Shown piece by piece: positions 5,388 to 49,472 of a stretch of DNA of 64,000 nt. The stretch is from an uncultured Thermogutta sp. (GTDB lineage Bacteria > Planctomycetota > Planctomycetia > Pirellulales > Thermoguttaceae). Every line of letters starts with the position of its first letter. Positions within the stretch are counted from its first letter, which is position 1. The position numbers and the translations under genes are program-made. The notes beneath the pieces are model-generated. The model searched no databases and had not been told where the DNA came from. It saw only the letters and a list, made by a program, of their open reading frames with translations. The stretch lies in contig CAKZMM010000189.1 in NCBI GenBank assembly GCA_937128505.1, positions 1 to 64,000 of the forward strand. The letters are read 5' to 3'.

Positions 5388-5452
5388 CCCCATGCTGTTT
5401 TTGATTTCTGACCGATCAGATTAGTCTCCGCCGGCTAATGCGCGATACCCCC
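5365..5452. repeat. duplicated 3' end of the UxaA-type gene
   Basis: The 27 bases at 5365-5391, which include the stop codon of the dehydratase gene, recur with few changes at 5426-5452. The offset is 61 bp. It is one of the few duplications here that touches coding DNA. Confidence 0.75.
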
Positions 5453-5629
5453 TTGGAAGTGTGGAAGAGCATTGGTCAACTGAGGAGGCGACACCTGCCG
5501 GTCTTTGCGGACGATATTGTTAATCGGCACGTGCCGTCTCCCTTTTTTCGGGCACCTCCCGGCCTTTGGGGGCGATTTGCCTGAAGAGTCAATTTTTCGA
5601 CAACTAACGGTCAACTTTTCGCCGAGACA

Positions 5630-33700: not shown

Positions 33701-36700
33701 TTGGTGGGGCTACAAGGCGCAACCACGCCGGCGGCCATTGCCTCGCGAATTGCCGCGGCCATCAATCTACTGCGGACAAGCGTGGGATTCCAAGTTACGG
33801 CAGCCAGTACCCCTGAGGGATTGGTGCAGCTTTCCGGGCCGCAAACGGCCTTCGATGGGCTAAACCTTGTCAGTCCGACCAATAGCCCGCTGCGGGCAAG
33901 CGACCTCAATCAGACGACGATCAAGCTTGATGAGCGATTGTCGGATACCCGTCGACAGGTCGAACCGCTCATGCGGGTATTCCAGGTAAGGGCTTCAGAC
34001 CCTGGGCCTCTTTACTACTCAGAAACGCTGCAGGGGGATTCGCCCGACAAGAGCTTTGGGACTACGGCGCGGAACAACAATCGTTTCTTCGATTATCGCC
34101 GCGGACAAAATAACAACTTCGAAGGGTGGTACATTGATGATATCGTTATCGGCTTTGCGGAACGCGGTGAGATGGTCACCAATGCCCCTGCGGGGGTAAC
34201 CGACTTCGATTTTCTCCGCGCCCCCCTGATAACCGATCCGATCGTGATTACAGGAAGTTACCAGTTAGAAATTCGGCGCGGCGACGAGTTTGGCGTGCTA
34301 CTCACCCCGCCGGACAGCCCGTATAAAGTTTTGCGTTTAACAGGCTCGGCCGATACGAACGATCGTTGGGCCCAGGCCATCACGATCCGGATACCCGCCG
34401 CAGCAGATTTGGGGCACGGAGATCGGTTCTGGATCGAAGACGGAGTGAACCGGCAAGAGTTCGTCTTCCTGGATCAGACAATCGGCGGTGCGACCGGCAA
34501 TGCGCTCCCGGTCTATTTCACCACAGCACAGGCGCCGGGGACTATAGCGTCTCGTGTCGCTGCGGCAATCAACCAGGCTTACAGTCTGGGCCGATTGAAA
34601 GTGACGGCCTTGTCCATGGGTACCAGCGACCGGGTGAACCTTTGGGGCGCCACTTATGTGGGCGGTACCCTGGGAGGCGAATCCGCGGTTACCGGCACCA
34701 AGCCGGCCGGTCCGATCAACCAGATCGTATTCGGTTCGGTGGAAGCACCGACGATTCAGCGCGTGCGACTGCTGATGTCCGCCGGCTTTGGGATCCGGCA
34801 CCGCGATACTTTCCGCTTGGAGGATGGAACGAATGCGGTGGACTTCATCTTCCTGCACTACCTCAGCGGCGAGACGCCGGAACCCGGGGTTTACGGAATC
34901 GTCTTTGACTTCGGGATGTCGGCCGAGCGGATTGGCGCTCTGGTCGTCCAAGCCATCAACCAGGCGTATGCCGACGGACGGCTGACCTTACGAGCCAGCC
35001 CCGGTCCGGTCACAGGTATGGTCGATTTGACCGCTGAGGACCCGCAGATGCGGATCACAGTAACCGGTCTCCAGTACACGACGTTCTTCGACCCGGTTGC
35101 GGTACCCGGGGTGACTCAATTCTACCCCAACCCGGCGGGTCATCCGATTGTGGGAGATCGGAATCACTTCCGCGAGAAGGGTCAGATCATCATTAATGGC
35201 GTGAATATTATGTATGCCCAGGGTTGGGGTATCCGGGTCGAGCCGGCGGCCCGAGATGCAGACGGCAATTGGCCCTTCCCCGCGTCGGGCCGGTGGATGA
35301 ACGCGGCCTATCCCACCGCAACTCCTGGCGCGATGTGGGTGCCCGGGGTCTCGTTGATTAACAATATCGTCGCATACAGCGGCTCCGGCGGGATTTATTT
35401 TGGCGGTGACACGGGGCAGCCTGTGGGGGCGATCCCCTTTGGTCGGATTGTGAACAACACGGTCGTAGGACCGATTTTGGCCGGGGATGACCCAGCCGGT
35501 GTGGGCATCCAAGTGGGTCCGAATGCGACCCCAACGCTCCTCAACAACATCATCGCCGGTTGGCAGATCGGGGTTCAGGTCCACCCCACTTCTTCCAGCA
35601 CGGTCCTTGGGGCCAACACGTTCCAACTGAACGCAGTGAACACGGTAGGGACGACGCCGGGGAGTTTTGCGGATATCCTCAGTGCCACCGATCCACTATT
35701 TGTCAATGCGGCACGGGGGAATTTCTACCCGGATCACGGCTCTCGCGTGATCGATAGCTCGTTGGATGCCCTCCAAGAGCGAGCCGATTACTACAGTGCC
35801 GTGCTCCAACCGCTGGGAATCCCGCCGTCACCGATCCTGGCGCCCACGCTGGATATCTTCGGGCAATTGCGGCAGGATGATCCGCGCGTGGCCCCACCGC
35901 CTGGCTTGGGTGCCAACGTGTTCAAAGACCGCGGGGCGGTGGACCGGGTCGATTTCTTCGGACCCACGGCCGCGATTCTCATTCCGGCGGATAACGGCCC
36001 CGATGATCGCAACCCGAGTTTGAACGATGTCACACTTGCCGGTATTCGGGTAATGCAATTTGTCATCGGGCTTTCTGATATTGGAGTGGGCATCGATGAT
36101 GCTACGGTCGTAGCGCAAGCTGTTCGGGTGTGGCGAGATGATCGCACGCGGCCGCTCCAAGAGGGAGTTGATTATCTCTTCAGCTACAATGCGACGAATA
36201 ATGAGATCTACCTCTACCCGGCTGCGGGCGTGTGGCGCACCGGTTACCTCTACACCGTCGAATTGGATCGCAATTTGATCCGCGACTTGGCGAATAATCC
36301 TCTCCAACCGAATCGGCCGCAGCCACATCCGCAGTTTGGCGATTGCTACTTCCAACTCAATCTCGCGGGGATCGATTACGGCGATGCCCCCGATGCACCG
36401 TATCCATCGCTTTTGGCCAATAACGGTGCTCGACACTTGATCATGTCCGGCTATTACCTGGGGACTGGCGCGACCACAGAACTCGACTCCTCCCAGGCAA
36501 CTCCTGACCGATTTGATGACGGTGTGCAGTTCCAATTCGGCGGTGTAGTTCGGGTGGAGCGAAACCCGGCCAATCCCGCAGAGCGGCACGGCGTCAATGT
36601 GTATGTGAGCGTGCCCACCACTTGGAATGTAGGCCCCACCGACACGGTGGGCTATCTGAACGCCTGGATAGATTTCAATCGCGACGGCGATTGGGCCGAT

Positions 36701-39700
36701 CCGGGCGAGCAAATCTTCGCGAACTTGCCGCTCAACGCCGGACAGAATAATTATGATTTCGGCACCGGAAAGCTGGTGTTCACGGTGCCGCACACGGCTC
36801 AGTTGGGTGTAACTTGGGCCCGCTTCCGGCTTTCAACCTATCCGTTTACGCCGGAAAACGCACTGAGCTATGTCGGCGAAGCCAATGACGGCGAAGTTGA
36901 AGATTACGAAATCGAGCTCGTCTCCGCCTACCGTGATTGGGGTGATGCGCCGGCCAGCTATCCGGTCACGCGGGTCAACAATGGCGCTTATCACGCGATT
37001 GTCGGCCCGAACAACCCGCATTTGGCTTTCCCCGACCAAAATAATCCGGGCCGGTTCTTGGCCGCACCGGACGCCGAGCGTGAGGGGCAAGCGACGGCCG
37101 AGGCTTTAGGTGACGATCGGGCTGGTGACGATGACGAAAACGGCGTGCGGATAGTGTTCATTAGCCCCGGTTATGTGCCGCAAATCACGGTTTATGCGGC
37201 AGCCCCGGGTTGGCTGAATGCATGGATCGACCTAAACGTTGATGGCGATTGGGACGATCCGGGTGAAAAAATCGTGGATGGGGTCTGGCTGACCGCCGGT
37301 GAGCACCGCTTGCATGATGAACTGGTGCTCAGCCCGATACCCGATACGATTCCGTTGGGCTACACCTTCGTCCGATTCCGCTTCAGCGACAATGTGCGAT
37401 ACCTGAATCCGGGCGGCGGGAATCCAGACCCACTGGGGCCCGATCCGAACGGTGAGGTGGAAGATTACCGAGTGCCGGTCATAATCGCTCCGGAAGATTT
37501 CGGCGATGCTCCGGCAACCTATGGCACCGTGGTTGCCGACAATGGGGCGCGGCATGTGATCGTGCCGGGGATCCATCTCGGGTTTGTGGCTCCGGATCTG
37601 GATCTGGATGGCCAGCCTGATCCCGTGGCTCAAGGCGATGATACCGATCTTGACGGGGATGACGAAGATGGGTTGATCGCCTATGGCCGCATCGTGCCGG
37701 GTGAGCCGCTGGATTCGCGGCTTGTTCCGGGCGAGCTTGCGCGATTGGTTGTGCGGGTAACCGGCGTGGGTTATCTGAGTGCGTGGATCGACTTTAACCG
37801 CGACGGGCAATTTGCCGACTATATCGACCCGGCAAGCGGCCTTGTGGTGCGTGAGCAAGTTTTGGCGGGGCAGTTTATCTCCGATGATAGCGCGCCGTTT
37901 GAATTCGATATCGCAGTTCCCTCCGGTTTGACGGCGGGGCCCACCTTCTTGCGGCTGCGGTATAGCAGCGCTCAATACGCGGTGATGAGCCCCATCGGAC
38001 CGGCGCCGGACGGTGAAGTCGAAGATCATCAGGTCCGAATCGAGATTGGCAATTCAACGATTCGCGGTTGGAAGTTTAACGACCGGAATGCCAATACCCG
38101 TTGGGATACCCAGCTGGCCGGTATTGTGCCTGCCATCCAACCTGCCCCGTTGGGTAGCGGGACCACGGTGCTTCTGCTGACCAACAATGGAACATATGGG
38201 CCTGTATCGTTCGGCTTCAACTTCGAGTTCTATGGCGGAACTTACCAACAGTTTTACATTAGCAATAACGGGGCCATATCGTTCGGCTCGCCGGTGGCCA
38301 CTTTCGACCCGGCCGGCTTCCCGCAATCCGTGCCGATGATTGCGCCGTTCTGGGCGGACGTGGATACCCGGTTGGCCGGCGGCCTAGTGGAACTGGTCCA
38401 CGGTACGAATCCCTTCAACGGAAACCCGTTTGTTCAGGTCAACTGGGTGAATGTCGGTTACTTCGATCGTACCAATCCGGCAAACGTGCCGAATTTGAGC
38501 AAACGGAATAGCTTCTCGCTGTATATCGAGGATGATCCGCTGGGGGATGTTGTTGCCTTCATTTACCACGGACTCCAGTGGACCACCGGCGATCCTCAAG
38601 GCGTAAATGGCTTGGGTGCCCCGGGGGCGGAGATTGGGTTCAATGCCGGTGACGGGGCGAATTTCGCCCGGTTGATGCGGCCCACCACTACTGCCGACCT
38701 GAACGAGTTGGTTACCCGGCAGACGCACGGCTTCCGGATGGATCCGAGCACCGGCACACCGAGCGGTCGCGAGCCCGGCTTGCCGGGGGTGGTGGTGTAC
38801 ATTGACCAAAACAATAACGGAGTGCGAGATCCCGGTGAACGCTGGACCGTAAGCCGGAGCGATGATCCGAATACTCCACAGGATGAAGCCGGATACTTCG
38901 AATTCACGGGGTTGTTCCCCGGGAATTATCTGGTCCGTGAGGAACTGGCCGGTGCCTGGAACGAATGGGTGCAAACTTATCCGCAACAAGGGGTTCGCAC
39001 TTATCGTGGGACCAACGTCCTCGGTCTGGTGGCAGTGGCCCCGAGCCGAATCGCCGACGGGGACCAGTTCGCTCTATCGGATGGCTCGGTACGTGTGAAC
39101 TTCGAATTTGACAACGATTTCTCGCTACGGGATCCGAGCGCGGTCCGGATCAGCCTGACGGGTCTGGTCAATGCTCCGCAGGTAGCCAATGCGATCGTGG
39201 GGGCCGTGAATAGTGCTCGGCTTACCCGCGGGTTGAATATCACGCCGGCGGCGATCGGCGATCTGGTGCAACTGACCGCGCCGCAGATCTTCGTAACGCC
39301 CACGAGCTATCCGTGGTCGCATCGCTTCAGCGCTCCGGCAGGGGCTCAACTACCGGATGGTCGCACCTTCGCCGTGGGTGACGGCAATGTGCGGGTAGTG
39401 TTCGAATTCGACCACGACGGCACACCCACGAACCCCGGCAGCGGTAATGTGCTGGTTAACGTTGCTGGCCTTACCGCCGACCAAGTTGCGGCCGCAATAG
39501 CCGCGGCGGTCAACAACGCCGCTTCCTCTGCCGGGATGAACGTCTGGGCCAGTGCGCTGGGATCTTCCGTCACTTTGAGCGGGCGAACCTTGATCTTCGA
39601 AGCTCTCAGCAGTGGTTTGCCGCCTGGGCCGGTACGAATTAATCCCGATGGTTCGTACAGCATCCAGTTGGCTGCCGCGCAAACGGTAAGCGACATCAAT

Positions 39701-42700
39701 TTCGGTAACTATCTGCGGCCGCGGGTGCAGGTGACCGGGGCGCGAATCACCGAGGGGAACCACGGAGATTTGCGAGAGGTTGAGATCACCTTCAGCATGA
39801 CGCGGTCGTTCGGTGCCCCGGTAGACATTACTTTCAGCACGGTTGATGGTACGGCCACCTCGGACGACGACTATTTGCTGCGATCCGGCGCATTGCGGCT
39901 GCAAGCGGAAGGGGTACCACGAGGAGTTTGGACGTATCGGCCCATCACCTCGAATGAGGATAACGATTACGACTTCCAAATCTCGGGTCAAAGCATTGTG
40001 ATTCAGGCGATTGACCCGGCAGCCGAAGGCGGCGACTGGGAAATCTTCCTATATGACTTGAGCACGGAGACCTTGGTCCGGGTCACAAATAACACCAGTG
40101 ATGATCGCTTTAGCGCCGTGCACCGCCGAGGGGACTTGACGTATATCGTGTGGGTCGGCGCTGATCCAGTCGCTGGCCAGAGAGACACGGAAATTTTCCT
40201 GCGGGTCTATCGCTCGGGGGTCGGCTTCCTGTCGCCAGTAATCCAACTGACAAATAATGCCTATGACGACGGTGGTCCGCAGATCTCCGACGCCTACATC
40301 ACATGGTGGGGGCGGGTCACTACCACTAATACGGAGATTTTTGCCTTCGACCTGATCGGTGGTTTGAACAGCTCGTATCAGGTCGTGTCGGCTCCCATCA
40401 ACATTTCCAACAATATTTACAGCGATTACGAACCTCAGGTCTCTGGCAGCAACATCGTCTGGTACGGTTTCGATGGCTTTGATACCGAGATCTTCCACTG
40501 GAGTCCCATCACCGGCACGAGCCGGCTCACCAGCAACGGAATAACCGACGTAGGACCGCGGATCGACGGAAGCAACATCGTGTGGCGGGGGTTTGACGGT
40601 CAAGATTACGAGCTATTCCACTATAGCTTGACAACGGGCGTGGTCACCCAAATTACCGACAACACCACGGCGGATAATGCGCCGGCTATTTCGGGAAATC
40701 ATTTGGTTTGGCAAGGGCAAGTCGGCGGCCAGTGGGAGATTCTGTACTACAACCTTGCGAACTTGGGTACCGGGGTGCCGCCTCAGAATATTTCTGCCAA
40801 TGCTTTGTATGATGCGTACCCGCAAATTTCGGGGAACCGCGTCGTTTGGCACACCTGGGACGGCAACGACTGGGAAGTGTTCTATTTCGAAATCGGCAGC
40901 GGTATGATCGCCCAAAACATATCCAGCAATACCGTCTACGACTGGTACCCACAGGTTTCGGGCGACTCGATCGTCTGGCGAAGTTACGACGGTGATGATT
41001 ATGAAATCATGGTCGCCAGTTATCAGGAACCGCGGGTGACCGCCTCGGTTCGGGTGACCATCGTCGGCGATAATCACCGCGAGCCGGACGAGTATTTCTT
41101 GATGCGGATTTTGAGCGCTTCGATTCCGGGACTCGGTCCTGGCGCGGCGATCATCTCGCAGCCGGATGCTCCTATTTGGATCCTAAATGATGACCACCGC
41201 GGTTATGGGATTGACTTCGGCGATGCCCCCAACAGCTATCGTACTGTAGTGGCGGATAACGGGGCCCGACATCTCATCGACCCCGCGGTGTACCTCGGCA
41301 GTCGCATCGATAGCGAAGTGGATGGTCAGCCGAGGAGCGACGGCCTGGGTGACGACCTCGCCGGTTTGGCCGACGAAGATGGTGTGCTCTTCATCTCGCC
41401 GCTGATTCCCGGTCAGCGAGCCCAGGTGGTGGTGACGGCTTCGGTGCCCGGCTATTTGAGTGCTTGGATTGACTTCAATCGCGATGGCAATTGGGGTGAT
41501 CCAAACAATCCACTTAACCCCGTGGACCTTAACGAACAGATCTTCACCGATCAGCGGCTTTCAGCAGGTCCGAACGTTCTGAGCTTCACCGTGCCAGCCG
41601 ACGCGATGCTGGGCACGACCTTTGCCCGATTCCGCTTTAGCACCGCACAAGGGCTGAGCTACGTGGGGACGGCTTTGGACGGCGAGGTGGAAGATTATCA
41701 GGTGACGCTCGTGCCCACCCGGCCCACGGGTATTTGGCAGCGGGGGAAAGTAGTCTTCTTCGAGGGAACCGGTGCTAACGACACCTTCGAGTTCAGCCCC
41801 GGCAGCCCCGGCGGCCGACATGTGGTGGTCTTTAACGGCACCCGGTATGAGTATCTCGCTAGCGCGGTCGATACGATTGTGTTCAATGGGGCGGGCGGCC
41901 GCGACTCCGCCGTGCTCAACGGTACCAGCGGTGCGGAGGAGGCTGAACTTCGACCTGGTATCGGAGTGCTTAAAGGCTCGTACTTCTTGGTTTGTGTCAC
42001 CGATGCGGAGACCGTCACGGTCAATGGCCGGGGCGGTGCTGACACGGGTAGAATGTACGCCTTGGCCGGCACCAAGGATAAGTTTACCGGCACTTCCACC
42101 TACGCTAGCCTGGCCGCCGGGATCTACACCAATCGGCTAAACAACTTCCCGCGTGTCCAAGTCTTCGGTAATCCGGGAGAAACCAGCGACGAAGCCCGGT
42201 TGTACGGTTCGGCGGCGATCTCCGAGACCTTCATCGGCACCCCGGATTCTGTGGTCATGAACGGCGGGAGCTATCGGATTCAGGTCGATTCCTTCCGCTG
42301 GAATTACGCCTACGGTAACGGTGCGGGGGATAAAGCCGAACTGTATGATCGGCCCACGACCCGCGATTGGCTGGTTGCGGATCCGACATACGCGAGACTA
42401 TCGGGCAGTGGCTTTTACATCTGGGCTCGGGATTTTGCCCAAGTGTTTGCCCAAGCGAGGGGCGGCACCGACGGCGTTACCCTGTATGATAATCCGTCCG
42501 GCGTGGATACCTTCCTGGCTTCGCCGACCGAGGCCGTGCTCTCCGGCAGCGGCTATGTGATCCGCGCGGAAGGATTCCGAACTGTCACGGCCCAGTCGCG
42601 AGGCGGCAATGATACGGCGTCCTTGTATGACGACCCGACCACGTTCGATCGGCTCGAGACCACGCCCGAATATGCCGTCTACTACGGCAGCAGGTTCAAT

Positions 42701-43249
42701 AACCGGGTATTCAGTTTCCCGAACGTGTTCGCGTACTCGCGGGGTGGTGATGATCGGGCGCGGATTTACGATAACCGAATATTCCAGGAAACGTTCATCA
42801 GCTATCCGAGCTATAGTCGGCTTATTGGCCCGACTTATCAGCGCCAGGTCGAGGGCTTCCGCTATGTGACGGCTTACTCGAGCGGTGGCGAGGACATTGC
42901 CCTGCTGTATGACTCGCCGGGTAATGACGTCTTCACAGGCCGGTTTGGTGAAAGCACACTATCGGGCACCGGGTTCCAGAATCAGGTAATGGGCTTCACA
43001 TGGGTGTCGGCCTACGCTACCGCAGGCGGGTATGATCGAGCGACCATGCACGATTTGGCGTTGAGCTGGGCACCCGATCATCTCTCTGCACGGGACAATT
43101 GGGCCCAGGTGTCGAACTCCCTGATTTCTTACATCCTTTGGGCTGTCGATTTCGATCGCGTCGACGCGTACGGAAGCGATCACGGTGTCGACACCAAAGA
43201 GATCATTGGCGTTCTAGACTTCTTGTTCACGCACGGATCCTGGGCGTGA
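21740..43249 (+). CDS. giant 7169-aa C25-peptidase surface protein
   Basis: One unbroken frame of 21.5 kb; AGGAG precedes the ATG. There is no hydrophobic signal, but residues 40-51 (LEKFESRELLSI) match the planctomycete LEPR-XLL-type motif. Order of parts, by residue: C25 propeptide-like region; gingipain-type C25 peptidase 316-650 (His517 in SGHG, Cys551 in ACLTG); metzincin-like site 1196-1206 (HEIGHLLGYGH) with Met-turn Met1214; pre-peptidase domains near 1245, 2312 and 2600; beta-helix regions from 1411 and 4471; jelly-roll pieces near 3575-3716 and 4128; GEVED modules at about 4877-5059, 5066-5247, 5253-5437 and 6493-6657; nidogen-like domain 5459-5677; SdrD_B-like pieces; Calx-beta split around an 8-bladed TolB-like propeller (6055-6434); and nine C-terminal repeats (6724-7150). 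About 12 FEFDxDG-type modules are scattered through 838-5888. It is presumably a secreted or cell-surface adhesin-protease; its target is unknown. Confidence 0.88.
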   Translation: MGIFSSLGLFSRKASGRKELQKSGGKAGKDRKLRPRALRLEKFESRELLSIGAGVDDQTILSWSAAPGLGQTLPTLPVGQLPYAGTGRQWVDFNLADGLNPGAVPQVQIVSASQSQLTAQVVLAGAWLDQTTVAGRVFSALTLPGYGSAGALGKPEMPAIRAMFEAPLGAQITATVSGSPKQFNLAQVGIREPIVPVQPPVVKVPGARESAPLVQDGGTYATDAFVAQAGVRVVEAGMFAGRRLVMVEVLPAAYNPVKGVVAVYDTLNFTLQFSGGQWSQSVLTTKEQAHLAQLVLNASSGTQGQPQTQQTKQPGNLLIIVHRDFAGQIGSFVTHKESLGWTVQVVDTARAGTTATAIRSFIQSQYANPATRPDAVLLIGDTDRIPTFVGQAMVYGDTAPPNTDLYYACMDPGDDWFPEFPVGRISVADGAQLRDVLQKIITYESSSPAGWTSRAAFMAGVDNYTITEGTHEWVITTHMDPLGFTSDRLYVVSQGATTQDVIDAINQGRLWAVYSGHGIETAWTDGPPLTAADVMALTNNGMYPVVASFACLTGNFAYPEAFLETWLRISDRGAVAAFGSSVTSFWDEDDILQKRLFDAIYGENQFHVGTAIYRAKELYQIHFGPTTTTRRYFEQYNLLGDPTVRLLAPGEDVGPVGPELVAIIPNEGQILDIDQFYTLNVAPRDLLLRFNEGQQLDPATLGAILFVRSVDGTFGNGNDQLVPVGYVGLADRPNEVIVRFAGRLEDDLYRLIIVGRDDYVDVNGNPVAPLRNTLGIPFRAGMDPEEQVLEYEFELDLGPLVTAVVPQPVIRGPQITVQSLPVDGEVFAVNDGTQQVLFEFENTAIGNGVAPGRVAVPFHPTNTPAVVAASIQEAIQSQISGGALRGLRGVNVAGAVVTIDGPRALVQTGSAALRVQHLRQLRDVIEVYFNKDDLADTPQAAENRNFYQLFVTRNSADPNDDLMVLPQRVEYDAALDKATLYFAQDLALYGTGAFRLRVGNAYQPTLSDFRVVTTDPGTTFWTALDIRSVGGSLAPIFGNGSGPQSLILTGTIDAHPLDFTLEWPGAVDEPGHRDLPNHPALMIEDHFSGESAPDQTAGVTTIPYYFPEAGWNLITEAQKQRAREIFTLFGYYLGVQFYENPRGGLAIVTGDLALAGLQSAPGGVAGVATGGGAIMDYAENWGASEYGGAWFLVAMHEIGHLLGYGHAYDQLAIMGSGETLTFLPLEPVFPYDHDLIHGQHMHRPDSIDIDMYRVQLDERGLFSVEILAERGPHSSLLDAVVTLYQEYTENGIKKYRVLARNDDYYSDDPALEMYLQPGVYYVGVTAKGNTQYDPNIYDTGVGGVSQGDYQLRLTFKPRGVDPNNPETFKDVSPTPWHLVDSTGTLLDGDADGVPGGVYNFWFNVQPESRTVFVDKLSPVPGSQQDGSLRAPYSTISAALAAVAPGSVLRIVGNNFDNDDPSVPASLRDNVPYEIGYNLFGAPLADGPRFEVPRGVTVMIDAGAVFKLSKANIDVGSSSEGVDRSGSALQVLGTPYNKVYFTSYFDETLGRDGDPLMKTIPRKGDWGGLVIRNNLDYDFIETYNPASGLPAREVLETQGIFLNYINQADIRFGGGEVIVDGVRGVYAPICLFEARPTITFNTITNSADAAISADPNSFADTKIQNWDRTRPFMADYDRVGPQLRYNQLAASYAVSTDVGAPVQAHSNTVNGILVRVRTAAGERTEVLEIAARFDDWDIVHVIPENLVIRGTPGGPIVSPQTTNLQRIDDFRLQVPLGGGDAIRDGETFSIFDGSTRVVFEFNLRSDWMNRGTGSFIPGRVEIRYDRSNDPNPGDPPSTQSQLAGLIVNAINWARDNRGLDVTAVHLGGGLIELRSTAPVWKLEGFGTWDARIDARLQIDPGLVVKLGGSRIEVGMGAQLIAEGRPGLNETAPSYKVILTSLLDTRYGAGGTFDTVSQTGGRAATPGDWGGIYFAPASSGSIDQAVIAYGGGNTAIEGGFARFSPVEIYQAEVRVVGTRFEFNDAVAVAGTRGGRGTLSSPATIFVRGAQPIIVANDFLGNRGFVISIDAGALKAWNVPDWGRSTGPLSSYEEYADNFGPMVRKNRFGLVDNLSLSNQFSGMEVRGGQLTTESIWDDTDIVHILRNEIIISNYHHVGGLRLQSNAAGSLVVKLTGSNAGFTATGQTGEMDDRIGGILQIVGMPGRPVILTDLADDSVGAGFDILGRPVFDTNGNGPSEGSPGAWRSVRFDRYAHDRNVAVVLEHEPGSGVAVDQNANPLLSQRLGVLAPEEKAGDDIQRLGFQIVGFIRFDDPGDVDVYQFDARAGTEIWVDIDWSSFALDTIVELVTVDGQVLAWSDNSHEYGRYEHKTDPDGALLGLAMDRDVYLRHDFYTMNPRDAGFRVVLPGPAGQVRTYYLRVRSTLGIGNIVPGSQITEGQQFRITDQNGTSILFEFDRDGVYAAGAIPVAYQGLNNSQVAQAIVDAVTTARLTRGLQVSARIRVDQVLQNGVYVATPHVMLDGVRARFEPETTPFVRLANTAGKYQLQVRLREMQELAGCTVEYADIRYATNGIEIRGFPQHSPLLGESAEIPGDNQSFGNAQELGNLLSSERNAISVVGYLSGRTDVDWYRIEIDYEGIQSIGGINDGGSVWSAIFDIDYADGMARPDLSMWVFDSAGRLIYFGTNSSVVDDLALPQGPSLEDLARGSIWSRDPYIGPVYLAERNEVYYVAITSVLATPRVLSSVLGGDWCEDKTAYPLVRVEPINAIARVVEEHVESGPRSFVSAFNPNADPNPSSSPDGNQRLSLVPDEFMLGDVVFYVLTGTDLYTVDPFTGAVETDVTDWADPYLPGSPSIYYRDIAMRNDGRLMTVSIGPGANFNPRYREFDLGNANTLVIDVDTGIDVIRRDPANPASLQADPNNSVYVQALVHDFRNTGDRGRHVLIVGYIPNPDLGGTGATSGENLVWLLSSGGTAVNHPLINNGQRTSGNRLFSNIVPIGQLFTAPTILANPATQTEAPYGSPGVQELDFEDGDWFSVTSAGGTTQEFEFDLGIDVRMDVQGAAAFRDGQFFSIRNVNNGVTYTFEFDSGPVIVVPATATAALDGVYVVIPGTAPGGGNVDIIFEFDRDGNLTNSSHVRVPFTTGAPGSVLAQNLVAAINAQTSFTVVATAVGRRVSLVNDRTDNTHASSDTAQVQIEGSHGVSGFRTRIAFEESWSSQQLGLEIERVVDASQTFVFPAANRIDASYAYRTPGGSPPSSPGDRLSFFNADTFTRGGGVPLYYVEGSPGVTPGRQVVRFGAGYTGSEMAQVVASAINASGIGVSASASGYTVVLSGVAGTNPVNLSGAPNLSFTGEGGGGRITGLAYLRVPGFVSGQEYVLFAVSDQGGLFYVTGEQSAYANGGSWGFIPIDPQGAPPYFARNPGAGPQLRYITQVRDPQGNPISFSGLSAGPANVEFGGYAQTLFASDSSGRVWAMDILGNLLGVFANGSTNIDPPSPVGAVHGVAFSPIDYNLWHWTLRRRDDAGHGIYSTLDTSRVSAEGYDPLMEGLRSYYFGLDDPTDAWGNQSQPGASNFTSGEGSDGSRLMTYNLPGGAIGSLTTGTFSLKGYTAADRPMLYFTYYAHTENSNDFDGLRVYVSNDGANWTLIATNTDLNDPGFIRDGIEQPGYGGYIREIHDLGGNWRQARIDLSQFAGLDKLRIRFDFSTASDMDVGDPQTGGSYLVAPAAAQLRDGQTFVLGNSSLNIADVTFEIDMGYALVFPNAAGVQIKESPTTGLGEYVDIGDGGSTIRFEFDKDGRVGPAVPGISRVVPVRITDAMTTRQVADLLAAAINAERTAGRLAVQAFVPEDAIFQGSAGNRVFLIGAQSVARGTHYTGAPIALAVEGSAPGQYTAGRTPVYLRPDMTQLEVSRVITATVNRRFRVVPDQIYIRPLTTAASLNNTVFTITGLDGGNVPRYAVFGFTTVLSAPQIVPPSSLPALPPGVRVDYAVLVGLQGATTPAAIASRIAAAINLLRTSVGFQVTAASTPEGLVQLSGPQTAFDGLNLVSPTNSPLRASDLNQTTIKLDERLSDTRRQVEPLMRVFQVRASDPGPLYYSETLQGDSPDKSFGTTARNNNRFFDYRRGQNNNFEGWYIDDIVIGFAERGEMVTNAPAGVTDFDFLRAPLITDPIVITGSYQLEIRRGDEFGVLLTPPDSPYKVLRLTGSADTNDRWAQAITIRIPAAADLGHGDRFWIEDGVNRQEFVFLDQTIGGATGNALPVYFTTAQAPGTIASRVAAAINQAYSLGRLKVTALSMGTSDRVNLWGATYVGGTLGGESAVTGTKPAGPINQIVFGSVEAPTIQRVRLLMSAGFGIRHRDTFRLEDGTNAVDFIFLHYLSGETPEPGVYGIVFDFGMSAERIGALVVQAINQAYADGRLTLRASPGPVTGMVDLTAEDPQMRITVTGLQYTTFFDPVAVPGVTQFYPNPAGHPIVGDRNHFREKGQIIINGVNIMYAQGWGIRVEPAARDADGNWPFPASGRWMNAAYPTATPGAMWVPGVSLINNIVAYSGSGGIYFGGDTGQPVGAIPFGRIVNNTVVGPILAGDDPAGVGIQVGPNATPTLLNNIIAGWQIGVQVHPTSSSTVLGANTFQLNAVNTVGTTPGSFADILSATDPLFVNAARGNFYPDHGSRVIDSSLDALQERADYYSAVLQPLGIPPSPILAPTLDIFGQLRQDDPRVAPPPGLGANVFKDRGAVDRVDFFGPTAAILIPADNGPDDRNPSLNDVTLAGIRVMQFVIGLSDIGVGIDDATVVAQAVRVWRDDRTRPLQEGVDYLFSYNATNNEIYLYPAAGVWRTGYLYTVELDRNLIRDLANNPLQPNRPQPHPQFGDCYFQLNLAGIDYGDAPDAPYPSLLANNGARHLIMSGYYLGTGATTELDSSQATPDRFDDGVQFQFGGVVRVERNPANPAERHGVNVYVSVPTTWNVGPTDTVGYLNAWIDFNRDGDWADPGEQIFANLPLNAGQNNYDFGTGKLVFTVPHTAQLGVTWARFRLSTYPFTPENALSYVGEANDGEVEDYEIELVSAYRDWGDAPASYPVTRVNNGAYHAIVGPNNPHLAFPDQNNPGRFLAAPDAEREGQATAEALGDDRAGDDDENGVRIVFISPGYVPQITVYAAAPGWLNAWIDLNVDGDWDDPGEKIVDGVWLTAGEHRLHDELVLSPIPDTIPLGYTFVRFRFSDNVRYLNPGGGNPDPLGPDPNGEVEDYRVPVIIAPEDFGDAPATYGTVVADNGARHVIVPGIHLGFVAPDLDLDGQPDPVAQGDDTDLDGDDEDGLIAYGRIVPGEPLDSRLVPGELARLVVRVTGVGYLSAWIDFNRDGQFADYIDPASGLVVREQVLAGQFISDDSAPFEFDIAVPSGLTAGPTFLRLRYSSAQYAVMSPIGPAPDGEVEDHQVRIEIGNSTIRGWKFNDRNANTRWDTQLAGIVPAIQPAPLGSGTTVLLLTNNGTYGPVSFGFNFEFYGGTYQQFYISNNGAISFGSPVATFDPAGFPQSVPMIAPFWADVDTRLAGGLVELVHGTNPFNGNPFVQVNWVNVGYFDRTNPANVPNLSKRNSFSLYIEDDPLGDVVAFIYHGLQWTTGDPQGVNGLGAPGAEIGFNAGDGANFARLMRPTTTADLNELVTRQTHGFRMDPSTGTPSGREPGLPGVVVYIDQNNNGVRDPGERWTVSRSDDPNTPQDEAGYFEFTGLFPGNYLVREELAGAWNEWVQTYPQQGVRTYRGTNVLGLVAVAPSRIADGDQFALSDGSVRVNFEFDNDFSLRDPSAVRISLTGLVNAPQVANAIVGAVNSARLTRGLNITPAAIGDLVQLTAPQIFVTPTSYPWSHRFSAPAGAQLPDGRTFAVGDGNVRVVFEFDHDGTPTNPGSGNVLVNVAGLTADQVAAAIAAAVNNAASSAGMNVWASALGSSVTLSGRTLIFEALSSGLPPGPVRINPDGSYSIQLAAAQTVSDINFGNYLRPRVQVTGARITEGNHGDLREVEITFSMTRSFGAPVDITFSTVDGTATSDDDYLLRSGALRLQAEGVPRGVWTYRPITSNEDNDYDFQISGQSIVIQAIDPAAEGGDWEIFLYDLSTETLVRVTNNTSDDRFSAVHRRGDLTYIVWVGADPVAGQRDTEIFLRVYRSGVGFLSPVIQLTNNAYDDGGPQISDAYITWWGRVTTTNTEIFAFDLIGGLNSSYQVVSAPINISNNIYSDYEPQVSGSNIVWYGFDGFDTEIFHWSPITGTSRLTSNGITDVGPRIDGSNIVWRGFDGQDYELFHYSLTTGVVTQITDNTTADNAPAISGNHLVWQGQVGGQWEILYYNLANLGTGVPPQNISANALYDAYPQISGNRVVWHTWDGNDWEVFYFEIGSGMIAQNISSNTVYDWYPQVSGDSIVWRSYDGDDYEIMVASYQEPRVTASVRVTIVGDNHREPDEYFLMRILSASIPGLGPGAAIISQPDAPIWILNDDHRGYGIDFGDAPNSYRTVVADNGARHLIDPAVYLGSRIDSEVDGQPRSDGLGDDLAGLADEDGVLFISPLIPGQRAQVVVTASVPGYLSAWIDFNRDGNWGDPNNPLNPVDLNEQIFTDQRLSAGPNVLSFTVPADAMLGTTFARFRFSTAQGLSYVGTALDGEVEDYQVTLVPTRPTGIWQRGKVVFFEGTGANDTFEFSPGSPGGRHVVVFNGTRYEYLASAVDTIVFNGAGGRDSAVLNGTSGAEEAELRPGIGVLKGSYFLVCVTDAETVTVNGRGGADTGRMYALAGTKDKFTGTSTYASLAAGIYTNRLNNFPRVQVFGNPGETSDEARLYGSAAISETFIGTPDSVVMNGGSYRIQVDSFRWNYAYGNGAGDKAELYDRPTTRDWLVADPTYARLSGSGFYIWARDFAQVFAQARGGTDGVTLYDNPSGVDTFLASPTEAVLSGSGYVIRAEGFRTVTAQSRGGNDTASLYDDPTTFDRLETTPEYAVYYGSRFNNRVFSFPNVFAYSRGGDDRARIYDNRIFQETFISYPSYSRLIGPTYQRQVEGFRYVTAYSSGGEDIALLYDSPGNDVFTGRFGESTLSGTGFQNQVMGFTWVSAYATAGGYDRATMHDLALSWAPDHLSARDNWAQVSNSLISYILWAVDFDRVDAYGSDHGVDTKEIIGVLDFLFTHGSWA
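39902..41041 (+). repeat. eight TolB-like propeller blades within the giant protein
   Basis: Residues 6055-6434 contain eight units of about 45 residues. Each ends in a pattern such as YPQVSGDSIVW followed by D-x-E-I-F and a TNN- or ISNN-type turn. They resemble TolB/PD40-type beta-propeller blades. The block sits between the two halves of a Calx-beta domain. Confidence 0.75.
41909..43191 (+). repeat. nine C-terminal ~47-residue repeats of the giant protein
   Basis: Residues 6724-7150 divide into nine units of about 47 residues with the consensus LYDxPxxDxFxAxPxYAxLSG, then xGFxxxxxGFxxVxAxxxGGxD. The best copies are units 4-8; the outer ones are diverged. The second large protein ends in the same kind of array. 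The repeats may form an elongated or cell-wall-associated beta structure; their function is unknown. Confidence 0.85.
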
Positions 43250-43289
43250 TGCCGTCGTGGGCATGCTGTTGCGAAGTATTCAGTGATCC

Positions 43290-43320
43290 ATTGGCTCGCA
43301 CGCTGTTTTAAGGAGCCAAT
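43290..43320 (+). terminator. hairpin after the giant gene
   Basis: attggctc (43290-43297) and gagccaat (43313-43320) form a perfect 8-bp stem with a 15-base loop, 40 bp after the stop codon. There is no T-run downstream. Confidence 0.4.
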
Positions 43321-43650
43321 CTCAGAACAACCCCGGCAATGAGCCGGTTGATTGCCCGGGCGGAAGATCGGGTTGCGCTTTGCCCGGCAATCGTGCTACT
43401 TTTTTCCTCGGTATGCGGATGGGATAGCGGATCGGCCGGAGGAGGTCCGCCACCTCCAATATGCTGCATCCTGCGTGGTGGCTCGAGGTTCAATAGCCCG
43501 AGGGTGGGGGGGCAGAGTGCGGCTTAATTTTTTGCCGCGCTACAAAGGCACCTTTGTTGCGCGGACTCGGCGCCGGTTCCGCCGCCTGCTTCCCGTCAAG
43601 TTTTTCTGAAAATTCCATGCTCCCGGCAATCCCTGGGCCCGATCTGTGCG

Positions 43651-43699
43651 AAGGTGTACAGGGGGCACCCTAAGAAGGTGTGCAGGGGGCAATATTAAG
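43651..43699. repeat. 24-bp tandem duplication
   Basis: Two adjacent copies beginning aaggtgt at 43651 and 43675 share the core caggggggca-like block and the ending taag, with few mismatches. Confidence 0.8.
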
Positions 43700-43753
43700 T
43701 CCGGCATTCAGTCTTATTCGTCGCCGGTTCATGGCCCCGTCTGAAATATCACT

Positions 43754-43843
43754 TGCCGGTTATAGCCCCGCTGCAATTTTACCTGCCGGTTGTAGCTCCA
43801 CTCCGACATCAATTGCCGTTTATAACCCCGCTGCAATTATGAC
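43754..43843. repeat. threefold 30-bp tandem repeat
   Basis: Three units of exactly 30 bp (43754-43783, 43784-43813, 43814-43843), each starting with tgccg followed by g/ttt. Units 1 and 3 share ccccgctgcaatt; unit 2 is more diverged. A partial copy (ctgctgcaatgac) follows. Confidence 0.85.
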
Positions 43844-44360
43844 TCCTGCTGCAATGACACAGGGCAAGCAAGAAAGGCTTGCCGTCCGCAGGGTCAGACG
43901 CCGGTCAATCCCCCTCCGCAATTATGGAGTTCTAGGGCACACGTGGATGCCCCCTAAATATTCCGCTTGTTCATGCCCAGATTCCCCGGGTGTCTTGATT
44001 TGAGGCTGCTCCTCTGAAACTAACATCGGGTCCTTGCCTCCCGCGGGTAAATCGTGGCGGCTTGAAGTTCAACGGTAGCCCCGGAAGCCCTATCAGCACT
44101 GGAAAAGCCCCTTCATCACGGCGGGAAGCGCAAGTGTTGCGCGTGAATGGTTCGGTCTTTTGGAGTGGTGTATCCCAAATGCTACACCGTTGCTTATGGG
44201 CAGCAATACGCAGCGGTTTTCAAACACCATTTCTGGGGGCAATAGGCATTGAGCATTGTGGGCGATGCGAGGACATAAACCCGGGAAAATACCCCACAGG
44301 CGTTTTCTCATAACGGTTGGCGAGCGAGGTACGGTTTTTGCCACGAGGATTACCATCTTT

Positions 44361-44397
44361 AAAAGAGCACTCCCGCCTGAAAAGAGCACTCCCGCAT
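44361..44397. repeat. 19-bp tandem duplication
   Basis: aaaagagcactcccgc is repeated at 44361-44376 and 44380-44395, giving a 19-bp period. Confidence 0.9.
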
Positions 44398-44888
44398 ACA
44401 CACTCCGTCAAACCGAAGCCTTCAAGACATTTGCTCTTACCGATGGTTTAACGGCCGGTTTGCCCACGTTCCTTCATCCCCATTTGCGCGGATCTCCAAG
44501 TGGCGACTAAGCCACCGAGCGTACCCGGCATTTTTGACCTATACTTTTCATGAGCGGCAGATTGAACGAGGATGCCGTGCTGATCCTGAGGCGTCTTGTC
44601 CACGCCTTTTCTTTTGGTCTCGTTTGAGTTGAAGCAGCGGTGTTTTGTTTGCGGGTCAGTAACGATACAGGGATGGTCCTGTTAGAGTGTCCTGACCCGC
44701 AGAGTGCGAGTTTTCCAGAGAGTATAAACAGCCCCTCAGGGATGGCTTCATGCATCCCGGGGGAAAGCTCTCGAAACGGCCGAGCGTGTAGGCGCCTTTC
44801 GGTCGCCTCCAATAACTCGTTTCAGAACGCAAATCTAGTCCTACGATTTTCCGTCTGATAATTTTCGGACCTCGCACGGGGAGCCATC

Positions 44889-47800
44889 ATGCCTGGAGCT
44901 TGCAGCCTGGGGCAGCTTTTGCATGTGGGAGAGGCCCGTCCTCAGCGAAGTTCCTCCAAAGGCCGTAGCTTTTCCTCCGGACTCACCGCTGCTTCCATGC
45001 GCCGGAGGTGTGCTTCGGCTACTTTTCCCACGCGAAAACTCCTCAGGCAACCGAAGTTCGAATCACTGGAAGTCCGTACACTATTTTCAATTACCGGCTC
45101 TACCGAATTCCTGAAGAATCTTCTTCCTTGGTCCGGAGGAGATGTGGCGGTAACAGGCAGCTATGCGGCGGCCGATTATTCCGCAAATCCTCTTTTCGAG
45201 GGCGAAGCAATCGGCCCCCTCTTGAGCGCAACGACGACCGGTGATGCTAGAAGCGGTCCGGACCGGATAGAACCCTTTCAGCCAATCGGGACACAGCAGA
45301 CCGCCGCGCTCAGTTTCGTATTCCCGGAACAACCCACGGTCCAGTGGTACGGAGCGGGTGCTTGGGTCACCTTGGCTGGCGAGCAGACCTGGCTTAGCCC
45401 CGGAGAGCCGGTGGTACCGGTCCGCTCCGCGGCTATTGCTCTACCTCAATTTAGCGAGCTTGTGGGACTGGAGGTTCAATACAGGGGGCAAGGAATTTCA
45501 CTGGCCAAGGATATCGATGCGTTCTTGGCTCCGGCCGCAGTCGCCATTGGGGCAGGCCCCCTTAGCGATGAGTCGGTCTCCCCGTGGCAGATCGTTTCAA
45601 GAGACTCCTGGCGCGATTTCCAAACGGTCCGATATCAAACCCACACCTATCGCGGCTATCAAATCCTCACACTTCAAGTGTTTCCCGTTTCCTATGACGA
45701 AGCCTCAAAGGGGCTTGTCTACCATGACGAAATTGATCTCTCGCTGACCGTTGCACACCCGCGCGGCGTCGACCTGGTTGCAACACAGCGGTCAAATAAT
45801 TCGCTCATTGACTATTCGCCTCCCTCATTGGCAGCGAACCTTGGAGTGCGAGGTCTGGCCAAAGATCGCGCCTTGGTGGCCGCGATGGTTGCCAATCCGG
45901 AGATTCTTCAAACATACGAACCGGTTCAAGTGCTTCCCCTCGCTCAGTTGCCCGAATCGGGGCGCTATGAGTACGTCGTGGTCACGTCGGCCGCACTGGA
46001 ACCGACCTTCGCGCAGCTTGTCGCCCACAAGCGGGCACGCGGCATTTCGGCCCGGGTCGTTACCACCGAATACATCGCAGCGCACTACTCGGGTACCGAA
46101 ACGGGCGATCTTGCCGACCGCATCCGGCAATTCATCACCGAGGCTTATCTGCATTGGGGCACCCAATGGGTCCTCCTCGGTGGTGACACGGAGATCATCC
46201 CCGAACGCGGCGTTTTGGTCCAAGTGGGATCAACGATCGACACGAAGCTTGCCACCGATCTTTACTACGCGTGTCTCGATGGACCATGGAACGGTGATGC
46301 CGACGGGATTTGGGGTGAGCCCACCGATGGACTTGGTGGGCGAGACATCGATTTGGCCCCAGAGGTATTCATCGGCCGAGCGCCGGTAAGCACAGTGGCT
46401 GAGGCCGGTCATTTCGTCAGAAAAACCATTCTTTATGAAACCACCCCCCATCCTAATCGGCTTACCGCCTTATGGTTGGGGGAGCGGCTCGACAGTCAAA
46501 CCGAGGCAAGCTACTCCGGCAATATTATTCGCGATCGCACCGTGCCGGATGGATGGAATCTGATCGAACGCTACGACGCCACCGGCGGCTGGGCAGGCTC
46601 ACAACTCATTCAAGACCTGAATCAAAACCCCCATTTGATCAACCATTTAGGTCATTCCAACGTCGGCTATAATGCTCGGCTTTACACCGCCGATGTGGCC
46701 CGGCTCCAGAATAGTTTTCCCTATTTTGTGTATTCTCAGGGGTGCTTATCTGGAGGATTTGACCTAAGGGACGTTGCCATCGGCGAACAGCACGTCGTAG
46801 GGGCGACGGGAGCTTTCGCGGTGATTATGAATAGCCGCTACGGCTGGTATGTCCCGGGCAATGTCCCGGGCGCAAGCCACTTCTACGCCCTGGAGTTTTG
46901 GGATGCGGTTTTTAACGAGGGGTTGCATCACGTTGGCCTGGCCAATCACGACTCGAAAATAGATAATCTTTTCCGCGTCCAAACCACGGGTGTCTACCGG
47001 TGGATCCACATGGAAACAAATCTTTTAGGAGATCCGGAGACCCCCTTACAAATCACTTCTACCCCCAGTATTTCGCCATGGCAAATTGCCGGCCGAGTGG
47101 CCGAGGATCTCAACCGTGATTCCCAAGTTCAGCCGAGCGAACCGGGAATTGGTGGTGTTCCCGTTTGGCTGGATTTTAATGGAGATGGCCGGTGGAACCA
47201 GGGGAGCTACGCCGTCGTAGCCGACCATTTGCCCACGGCAATCCCCGATGCGGCCATACTCCGCAGTACGGTCGAGCTGCCCAATTGGGGTCGGGTCACT
47301 GATCTCAGCGTATCGCTCGATCTTACCCATAACTATCTTAACGACCTGGAAGTGTACTTGATTAGTCCGGCAGGAACCCGGGTTCAGCTTTTTAGCAGAC
47401 TTCCGGCCGCAAATGGTCGATTAGCCAACGTGCGGTTTGATGATCAGTCGTCGCGGCCCATCCACCTGGGAAGCCCCGTCTTCGAGGGGACTTACCGGCC
47501 CGGCGAGCCCCTGAGCCGCTTTTACGGCGAATCGATGGGGGGAAGGTGGGTATTGGAAATCCGCGATGTGAACCTGATGGATACAGGTACACTTACGGCG
47601 TGGACGGTGGAGGTCGGATATGCAGAACCCTCCGTTCAAACCGACGCAAGCGGCTACTTTCGTTTCACGGGGCTGGTTACCGGGGATTACACCCTGCGGG
47701 TGGGGCCGCCCGTGGGCTGGCAGGTAATTTCCCCCGCTTCCGGGTACTATCAAATCGGCTTGACGGAGTCGAATTCCGGCTGGCAAGGCGACTTTAGTTT

Positions 47801-49472
47801 GGTCCGGCACCGGTGGCCGCCGGAGGCTGTTGACTGGGGCACCTTAGCATATCGCTCGGTTGCCGACGCCGGTATCTCCGAGCAGGGAACATGGTACCGA
47901 CTTGTCAGCTCCCGGTCCGGATACCTGACGATTGAGGCGAAAAGCAAGCAAGGTACGGGGAATTTCGAGATTTCTCTTCACGACAAGGATGGAGGGCTGC
48001 TTGCCCGGGCACGATCCGATGGAGGTTTGGCGCGTGTCGACTATGTGACCACCCGGCAGGAGGAACTCTATTTCCTTGTTCGTGGTAGGTCTGAACCAGT
48101 TCGCTTGGTTGCCGCGAATTTGGTGGCGGTTTCCGGGTCGACCGTAGGAATTGCCGGAACAACAGGCGACGACCGGTTCCGGTTCCGTGTGGGCGAGCAA
48201 TGCGAGCTTACGATCAATGATCTGACGTACCGATTCGATACCGCGGCATTTTCGCGGTATGTGCTGGCGGGTGCAGACGGAACAGATGGACTGGTGCTTG
48301 AGGGCTCGGCTGCTTCAGAGCGGCTGACAGCCTCGGGCTCAACCATTCGTTTCTTGGGGGGGCGTTGGTCGTTTGTGGCAACCGAGGTGGAGAATCTTTT
48401 GGCCCGGTCTCACGGCGGAAACGACGTCGCTTGGGTTTACGATTCCCCCGGTAACGATCGGCTGGTCGCCTCACCGAACAAAGCAGAGTTATGGCATCCG
48501 AATCAATATTTTTGCCTCGAGGGTTTCAAGTCCGTTCATGTTCTGGGGGTCAACTCGGGGCAAGACGAAGCACGACTGACCGACTCACCGGCGAATGATA
48601 TCTTTTTGGCTACCCCCAATTATGCGGTGCTTTACAACCCGAATTTCCAAATCAGAGTTGTGGGCTTTGACAAAGTTGTCGCATCGAGTACTGCCGGCGG
48701 AACGGATAGCGCGTATTTGTACGACGGGGCCGGGGACGATGTATTCCTAGCGACGCCGCAATACGGTGTTCTTTCGGGCGCCGGCTACGAGAATCGTGCG
48801 GTGGGATTCCGATTCGTGGTGGCTTTCGCTTCCACGGGGCAAGACGTGGCTAAGCTGTACGATTCCGCAGGGGCGGACACACTGTATGCGACGCCGACCT
48901 ATGTGGTGTTATCCGGTTCCGGTTTCTACTTGAAAGCAAATCGCTTCCGCCATGTGTCGGCGACTGCAAGCAGCGGCGCGGACTTGGCCAAGCTTTATGA
49001 TTCCAGCGGAGACGACTTTCTTCGCATCACGCCAAGTTACTCTCAACTTTCCGGTGCCGGATACAACGTGGTCGCAAAGGGATTCGGCCGCGTAAGGGCC
49101 TATGCCAGTGCCGGTGGAAACGATGATGCGGTGCTTGTCGGCTCGGATCGCTCGCCCAACATCTTGCGTGCTTCGGGTTCCTGGCTTGCCCTCCAGAACG
49201 CGGATTTGGACAGCCAGCTTAGCGGTTTCCGACGCATTCGGGTCAATGGGGCGAATACCGTCGGTAGCCGAGCCGTGATCTACGACTCCCCTCTGGACGA
49301 CCTCCTTTTTGCAAGCCGTAACGTATCGCGGGTGACCAACCGGCTTTTCAGCCTGTGGATCGAGGACTTTGCCGTGGTGCAAGCACATGCCCGGAATGGC
49401 GGAGAAAACCGCTTGCAACTAGGAGATATCGATTACTTGCTGGAAACTACGGGCAACTGGCGTTTCGTATAA
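44889..49472 (+). CDS. 1527-aa C25-peptidase surface protein
   Basis: A second large exported protein of the same style as the giant. FESLEVRTLFSI (57-68) is a LEPR-XLL-type motif after a basic N-terminus without a hydrophobic signal. A C25 propeptide-like region precedes the peptidase (about 360-723), with His589 in LGHSN and Cys619 in SQGCLSGG. Then comes an SdrD_B-like calcium domain (735-772) that breaks off after NGDGRWNQG, a proprotein-convertase P-domain (about 773-912), and the rest of the SdrD_B domain from Glu913 (EPSVQTDASGYFRF). A pre-peptidase-like stretch follows (about 975-1080), and eight repeats of about 47 residues close the protein (1134-1510). GGGAG lies upstream of the ATG. 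It is presumably an extracellular or surface cysteine protease; the target is unknown. Confidence 0.88.
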   Translation: MPGACSLGQLLHVGEARPQRSSSKGRSFSSGLTAASMRRRCASATFPTRKLLRQPKFESLEVRTLFSITGSTEFLKNLLPWSGGDVAVTGSYAAADYSANPLFEGEAIGPLLSATTTGDARSGPDRIEPFQPIGTQQTAALSFVFPEQPTVQWYGAGAWVTLAGEQTWLSPGEPVVPVRSAAIALPQFSELVGLEVQYRGQGISLAKDIDAFLAPAAVAIGAGPLSDESVSPWQIVSRDSWRDFQTVRYQTHTYRGYQILTLQVFPVSYDEASKGLVYHDEIDLSLTVAHPRGVDLVATQRSNNSLIDYSPPSLAANLGVRGLAKDRALVAAMVANPEILQTYEPVQVLPLAQLPESGRYEYVVVTSAALEPTFAQLVAHKRARGISARVVTTEYIAAHYSGTETGDLADRIRQFITEAYLHWGTQWVLLGGDTEIIPERGVLVQVGSTIDTKLATDLYYACLDGPWNGDADGIWGEPTDGLGGRDIDLAPEVFIGRAPVSTVAEAGHFVRKTILYETTPHPNRLTALWLGERLDSQTEASYSGNIIRDRTVPDGWNLIERYDATGGWAGSQLIQDLNQNPHLINHLGHSNVGYNARLYTADVARLQNSFPYFVYSQGCLSGGFDLRDVAIGEQHVVGATGAFAVIMNSRYGWYVPGNVPGASHFYALEFWDAVFNEGLHHVGLANHDSKIDNLFRVQTTGVYRWIHMETNLLGDPETPLQITSTPSISPWQIAGRVAEDLNRDSQVQPSEPGIGGVPVWLDFNGDGRWNQGSYAVVADHLPTAIPDAAILRSTVELPNWGRVTDLSVSLDLTHNYLNDLEVYLISPAGTRVQLFSRLPAANGRLANVRFDDQSSRPIHLGSPVFEGTYRPGEPLSRFYGESMGGRWVLEIRDVNLMDTGTLTAWTVEVGYAEPSVQTDASGYFRFTGLVTGDYTLRVGPPVGWQVISPASGYYQIGLTESNSGWQGDFSLVRHRWPPEAVDWGTLAYRSVADAGISEQGTWYRLVSSRSGYLTIEAKSKQGTGNFEISLHDKDGGLLARARSDGGLARVDYVTTRQEELYFLVRGRSEPVRLVAANLVAVSGSTVGIAGTTGDDRFRFRVGEQCELTINDLTYRFDTAAFSRYVLAGADGTDGLVLEGSAASERLTASGSTIRFLGGRWSFVATEVENLLARSHGGNDVAWVYDSPGNDRLVASPNKAELWHPNQYFCLEGFKSVHVLGVNSGQDEARLTDSPANDIFLATPNYAVLYNPNFQIRVVGFDKVVASSTAGGTDSAYLYDGAGDDVFLATPQYGVLSGAGYENRAVGFRFVVAFASTGQDVAKLYDSAGADTLYATPTYVVLSGSGFYLKANRFRHVSATASSGADLAKLYDSSGDDFLRITPSYSQLSGAGYNVVAKGFGRVRAYASAGGNDDAVLVGSDRSPNILRASGSWLALQNADLDSQLSGFRRIRVNGANTVGSRAVIYDSPLDDLLFASRNVSRVTNRLFSLWIEDFAVVQAHARNGGENRLQLGDIDYLLETTGNWRFV
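48288..49420 (+). repeat. eight C-terminal ~47-residue repeats
   Basis: Residues 1134-1510 contain eight units with the pattern LYDSxGxDxFxATPxYxVLSG, then xGFxxxxxxFxxVxAxASxGxD. They match the array that ends the 7169-residue protein in length and motif, showing a shared C-terminal module family. Confidence 0.86.

Follow-up and report, generated by a model that had tools for sequence, protein, structure and literature searches.

The stretch of DNA analysed here (the window, 64,000 nucleotides in full) is part of contig C189 in a planctomycete genome of 5.6 Mb, and the closest matches on named contigs come from Thermogutta, Thermoguttaceae and other Pirellulales. Two neighbouring reading frames in it, both intact, encode a giant protein of 7169 amino acids (aa) and a protein of 1527 aa. 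In each of them a domain of the SdrD_B family is interrupted by a domain of another kind, nidogen-like in the giant and a P-domain in the 1527-aa protein, so that the guest, as the sequence shows, is nested inside its host. This nesting had been proposed by an original prediction made from the sequence alone, and both a splice test and the complementary profile positions of the host parts bear it out. The host motifs on which the prediction rested were also found where it had placed them, namely DFNGDGRWNQG at residues 762–772 and EPSVQTDASGYF at 913 in the 1527-aa protein, and GWKFNDRNANTRWDTQ at 5443–5458 and EPGLPGVVVYID at 5678 in the giant.

The Pfam cut-offs that apply are 29.7 bits for SdrD_B (PF17210), 25 for the nidogen-like domain (PF06119), 21 for the P-domain (PF01483) and 27 for Calx-beta (PF03160). 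Against the Pfam SdrD_B model the two window hosts scored 23.8 and 19.6 bits when interrupted, and 38.6 and 30.7 bits with the guest deleted. The host halves can thus be re-joined, as had been expected, since the spliced hosts pass the cut-off and the interrupted ones do not; for the same reason, standard annotation tends to miss such nesting. With a profile of our own (103 positions, built from 250 uninterrupted planctomycete domains), the 1527-aa host rose from 24 to 57.3 bits on splicing, and the giant host from 38.5 to 64.3 bits without its first guest. The giant host is interrupted again after strand E (about residues 5752–5966, followed by YSIQLAAAQTVSDINFGNY), which the original prediction had missed, and when both interruptions are removed the host is complete, covering profile positions 1–103 with 77.6 bits. 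The positions covered by the separate parts are complementary in both proteins (Table 1). No deletion of the same length nearby beat the reported splice in the giant, whose guest boundaries, 5459–5677, were the optimum among about 2600 boundary choices; in the 1527-aa protein only a one-residue shift did better, by 0.4 bits. It is therefore highly improbable that an ordinary tandem domain simply stands between two separate or truncated domains which only look like halves of one. The first part in the giant is only 18 residues long and scores 9 bits alone, and a Bacteroidota protein (L166) does carry a nidogen domain and then an SdrD_B domain in tandem, but the complementary coordinates, the splice test with its optimum exactly at the reported boundaries of the giant, and uninterrupted orthologues that continue across the site all contradict such an arrangement. 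A profile of seven uninterrupted planctomycete hosts matched the solved SdrD B domain 10ps_A with an E value of 3.9e-18, and 4jdz was also matched; the spliced window host as a lone query found nothing. No direct repeats were found flanking either guest.

The original prediction had both guests entering the same loop. This part does not hold, because the profile split points fall in different loops: the giant's host is split at 17/19, which is its first loop (between strands A and B), and the host of the 1527-aa protein at about 41/45, which is its second loop (between strands B and C), after VPVWLD of strand B. What the two proteins do share is the point of entry just before the E of the loop motif. 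Strand names for the second loop and for the loop after strand E follow from alignment to SdrD. Both of the first two loops have the EF-hand-like pattern D1-x-N3-x-N/D5-x-x-x-D/N9-x-x-E12, and the guest stands between residues 11 and 12, so that metal ligands, as read from the sequence, flank it on both sides; in the giant D1, N3, N5 and D9 precede the guest and E12 follows it. Position 1 was D in all 17 hosts nested in loop 1 and all 18 nested in loop 2, and the residue after the guest was acidic in 35 of 35 (E in 30, D in 5). This exit residue was read via the register of the host (E-P-G-L-x-G, or the position six residues ahead of D or G in TDxxG) and not via the guest. Duplication of the EF-hand loop was considered as a driver of insertion and dropped; a doubled second-loop motif occurred in only 1 of 282 uninterrupted hosts.

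Among 1837 reading frames, a scan for split hosts gave 31 ordered complementary pairs, with splits almost only at positions 17–30 and 30–51. A reverse-order control gave 12 pairs, but it is a weak control because tandem composites yield such pairs naturally, and the splice test was therefore used. Interruptions after strand E were located by sequence, beyond the split-pair scan. The guests of loop 1 are nidogen-like domains, a vWA-like domain (in genome G007, assigned by eye) and one unassigned domain (L112), while loop 2 holds P-domains and FG-GAP propellers, the latter four times in one protein of genome G012. After strand E we find DGQ repeats, a LamG domain (67 bits), propeller-like repeats and a Lamin-tail-like domain (24.8 bits, under the model's threshold of 34.3), which gives this third port at least as many kinds of guest as the EF-hand-like loops. 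One G007 host holds the vWA-like domain in loop 1 and LamG after strand E simultaneously. The prediction that the loop is a preferred insertion port thus stands in that the point before the E is reused by unrelated guests; there is not one such loop, however, but two EF-hand-like loops and the site after strand E.

In seven of the 60 nearest genomes an orthologous giant has a nidogen domain in loop 1 of its SdrD_B host, and in further named planctomycetes a nidogen domain likewise enters loop 1 at this point. In an eighth genome (G029), and also in G088, the nidogen domain is found inside a beta-helix and the orthologous SdrD_B is uninterrupted, its loop being empty in both of these helix-port orthologues, the ones that could be read. 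Uninterrupted homologues of this kind had been anticipated, and at least six more stand in an SdrD_B array of a Phycisphaeraceae member (L110) beside two that hold a nidogen domain. The beta-helix turn measures 6–11 residues in eight orthologues, while five have a nidogen segment of 208–229 residues and one, G012, has a 223-residue segment with a vWA domain (PF00092, 28.9 bits); G012 has a nidogen domain in its SdrD_B as well. The port after strand E contains no, one or two DGQ copies among orthologues, and is empty in G003, G012, G029 and G088. At one locus (L109, genome G145) two nidogen domains occupy one port. Loop 2 holds a P-domain in about 14 other genomes, which belong to several families of the order, and the proteins concerned are C25 peptidases as well as others. 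We did not find a C25 peptidase with an uninterrupted SdrD_B at the site of the 1527-aa protein: five C25 loci and G001 all hold the P-domain, and three C25 loci (L263, L265, L272) have no SdrD_B at that place.

This distribution might be read as the legacy of a few ancient insertions, one of a nidogen domain and one of a P-domain into SdrD_B, which spread as composite domains with no recurrent port. The P-domain composites align end to end at 33–40% identity and occur in tandem in G012. In Bacteroidota and others the nidogen domain mostly stands alone close to the N-terminus, and in the tree these domains form one separate group (100/100), apart from the nested ones. We nevertheless consider this explanation unlikely. 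Loop 1, with at least three guest kinds, loop 2, with two, and the site after strand E, with several, call for separate insertions, and one and the same site can be vacant in one orthologue and hold another guest in the next.

We suggest instead that the SdrD_B (CnaB-type) sandwich is probably a small socket with three loop ports, in the A-B loop, the B-C loop and the loop after strand E, whose guests are exchanged by in-frame gain and loss. The core of the domain would be built by strands that are far apart in sequence, and the guests would sit in the loops with both ends tethered. In the EF-hand-like loops a bound Ca2+ could pin the two ends of the guest, and the guest (nidogen-like, P-domain, vWA or LamG) would project from the stalk as a rigid side arm, possibly to bind ligands or serve in adhesion. 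In evolution the ports would be filled and emptied as segments of domain size are gained and lost in frame, which is proposed because the nidogen domain is in either the SdrD_B or the beta-helix port of orthologues and because the DGQ guests vary from zero to two copies; for the nidogen cases we infer relocation, and likewise its direction, rather than independent gain and loss. The A-B loop of Staphylococcus aureus SdrD is held in place by an EF-hand-like Ca2+ site, which takes no direct part in the folding of the core (PMC13174682), a plausible reason why guests are tolerated there. An AlphaFold2 model of residues 5430–5995 of the giant (14 sequences), judged by confidence scores and predicted strands, had a mean predicted local distance difference test score (pLDDT) of 83, and the isolated N-terminal part of the host was predicted as a strand (model residues 10–18), which implies a partner strand.

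A number of observations weigh against this proposal. The predicted template modelling score of the same model was only 0.53, and in a model of the P-domain construct, made from two sequences only, the host halves were unreliable (pLDDT about 25–60). A search of the PDB with the giant model returned nothing significant, although a multi-domain query is unsuited to such a search. The nidogen tree neither separates the two ports nor dates the relocation, a single helix-port clade was not rejected (approximately unbiased test, p-AU 0.10), and the host tree forces no more than one move. Port frequencies are biased, because loci were partly recruited with host-guest queries, and the number of guest kinds is a safer measure. 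Finally, retention of the acidic exit residue is no proof of metal binding, because this residue is common in uninterrupted loops as well, and the FG-GAP guests of loop 2 enter a degenerate loop without EF-hand ligands.

These last points lead to the possibility that the guests are passively tolerated in long exposed loops of a stable sandwich, the ligands being kept through conservation of the host with no metal pinning, to which we give a chance only slightly short of even. Long surface loops are the usual sites of insertion, the core of SdrD is kept without Ca2+ (PMC13174682), and there is no EF-hand motif at the port after strand E. In loop 1 the exit residue is no more often acidic in nested hosts (17 of 17) than in uninterrupted ones (206 of 225; p 0.37). 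Passive tolerance fits less well with an entry point that, in the EF-hand-like cases, agrees down to the single residue, and with loop 2, where the acidic exit was kept in 18 of 18 nested hosts against 32 of 49 uninterrupted ones (p 0.003, from related sequences that are not independent).

Besides the SdrD_B sockets, sequence comparison shows ports in further folds of these giants, in the beta-helix turn and in Calx-beta. The propeller inside the Calx-beta domain of the giant (Table 1) had escaped the original prediction; the same arrangement is present in the orthologues that were read there, and at one locus (L107) a subtilase lies inside the same Calx-beta host in addition. The DGQ-type repeat of about 80 residues has no Pfam match and occurs in about 11 dispersed copies in the giant (residues 822–5946) and in 1 to 26 copies, some incomplete, among orthologous giants. 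Taken more broadly, the socket proposal would comprise a set of standard sockets (the two EF-hand-like loops and the post-E site of SdrD_B, the beta-helix turn and the Calx-beta loop) and a shared pool of guests that are exchanged and relocated between species, with calcium pinning the ends in the EF-hand sockets; in this extended form we put it forward only tentatively.

Table 1. Parts of hosts, guests and an empty port in the two proteins (nucleotide positions in the window; residue numbers in brackets refer to the protein).
Protein	Feature	Position	Strand	Support
Giant	Empty beta-helix port, PILAGDDPAGV, 11 residues (4578–4588)	35471..35503	+	Nidogen-like or vWA there in relatives
Giant	SdrD_B host, first part (5441–5458); strand A and loop-1 positions 1–11	38060..38113	+	Profile 1–17; 9.2 bits alone; joining lifts C-terminal part from 41.5 to 64.3 bits
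Giant	Guest 1, nidogen-like (NIDO) with C-terminal FRxDPxTGxP tail (5459–5677)	38114..38770	+	PF06119, 77.2 bits
Giant	SdrD_B host, middle part (5678–5751); begins at loop residue 12, E	38771..38992	+	Profile 19–77
Giant	Guests 2 and 3, port after strand E: two DGQ-type repeats (5770–5845, 5868–5946) with linkers	38993..39637	+	Repeat profile, E 4.8e-24 and 7.6e-24
Giant	SdrD_B host, last part, INPDGSYSIQLAAAQTVSDINFGNY (5967–5991)	39638..39712	+	Profile 75–103
Giant	Calx-beta host, first part (5993–6058)	39716..39913	+	20.6 bits interrupted, 32.7 spliced, cut-off 27
Giant	Beta-propeller guest in Calx-beta (6059–6429)	39914..41026	+	TIGR04275 repeats, 62.6 bits, below model cut-off of 85
Giant	Calx-beta host, last part (6430–6485), ILNDD end	41027..41194	+	Splice test
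1527-aa	SdrD_B host, first part (733–772); ends at positions 1–11 of second EF-hand-like loop	47085..47204	+	Profile 1–38, 26.1 bits
1527-aa	P-domain guest (773–912)	47205..47624	+	PF01483, 54 bits; best computed boundaries 774–776 to 910–912
1527-aa	SdrD_B host, last part (913 to about 975); begins at EP	47625..47813	+	Profile 46–100; 22.9 bits alone, 57.3 joined

A GEVED domain of the G088 giant (L252, L255; residues about 5228–5511) appears to hold an extra repeat domain, as does one in G012 (L015), and the repeat reads NNxLRLxAxxxGxxxNGVxVxxxx...VVxAINAEGTFxAxxDxSAxPxNDGSG, which suggests that GEVED is a further host fold. The two window proteins resemble each other in other respects as well. 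Both end in a similar array of repeats of about 45 residues (about 41900–43249 and 47900–49472; consensus xLYDSPxxDxFxATPxYAxLSGxGYxxxAxGFxxVxAxAxxGGxD), perhaps a shared anchoring or sorting region, and both have a C25 (gingipain-like) peptidase domain near the N-terminus (about 21740–23680 and 45970–47050), preceded by a motif of the KFESxELLS/KFESLEVRTLFS type. Degenerate TTGCCGGTTATAGCCCCGCTGCAATT-like repeats lie between the two genes, at 43700–43860.

In the Gram-positive pilus tip adhesins RrgA and GBS104, and in Mfa5 of Porphyromonas gingivalis, a ligand-binding vWA domain is inserted in a Cna-type Ig-like stalk domain; in Mfa5 the insertion separates strand B from strand C (PMC7835359). 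These pilus tip adhesins have one kind of guest and one port, in a CnaA-like host locked by an isopeptide bond, whereas the planctomycete hosts are SdrD_B domains (CnaB-type) with several ports and guests. As the guests in the window are nidogen-like and a P-domain, with vWA found in relatives only (G007, by eye, and G012), the planctomycete proteins would work like the pilus tip adhesins but are not members of that group. The B domains of S. aureus SdrD belong to the same host family (PF17210), and an EF-hand-like Ca2+ loop connects their strands A and B (PMC13174682). This loop is free of guests, however, and the aligned domains have a short second loop that is not EF-hand-like. Surveys of natural domain insertion list 48,551 and 174,872 cases (PMC13114784; PMC12328240), and insertions are present in about 20% of multidomain proteins, mostly at a single level and with guests that are normally smaller than their hosts (median 115 against 199 residues; PMC13114784). 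The planctomycete case reverses this pattern, with guests of about 140–375 residues in a host of about 100 residues, sometimes in two ports at once. The text of that survey (PMC13114784) does not mention SdrD, Cna or nidogen, and among the collection of papers that we searched for nested domains in planctomycetes none described this case. Nested domains as such are known already; what is new is a system with multiple ports and multiple guests.

The usual picture of domain shuffling is one of beads on a string. In this case related genomes have preserved one and the same socket in an empty state, with a single guest and with different guests, and the origin, movement and tolerance of nested domains can therefore be studied directly. 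With its exact entry point in the calcium loop, this small beta-sandwich offers an insertion site that occurs in nature and can be reused, which may interest protein engineers. The giant surface proteins of these planctomycetes seem to be built by swapping domains into fixed sockets.

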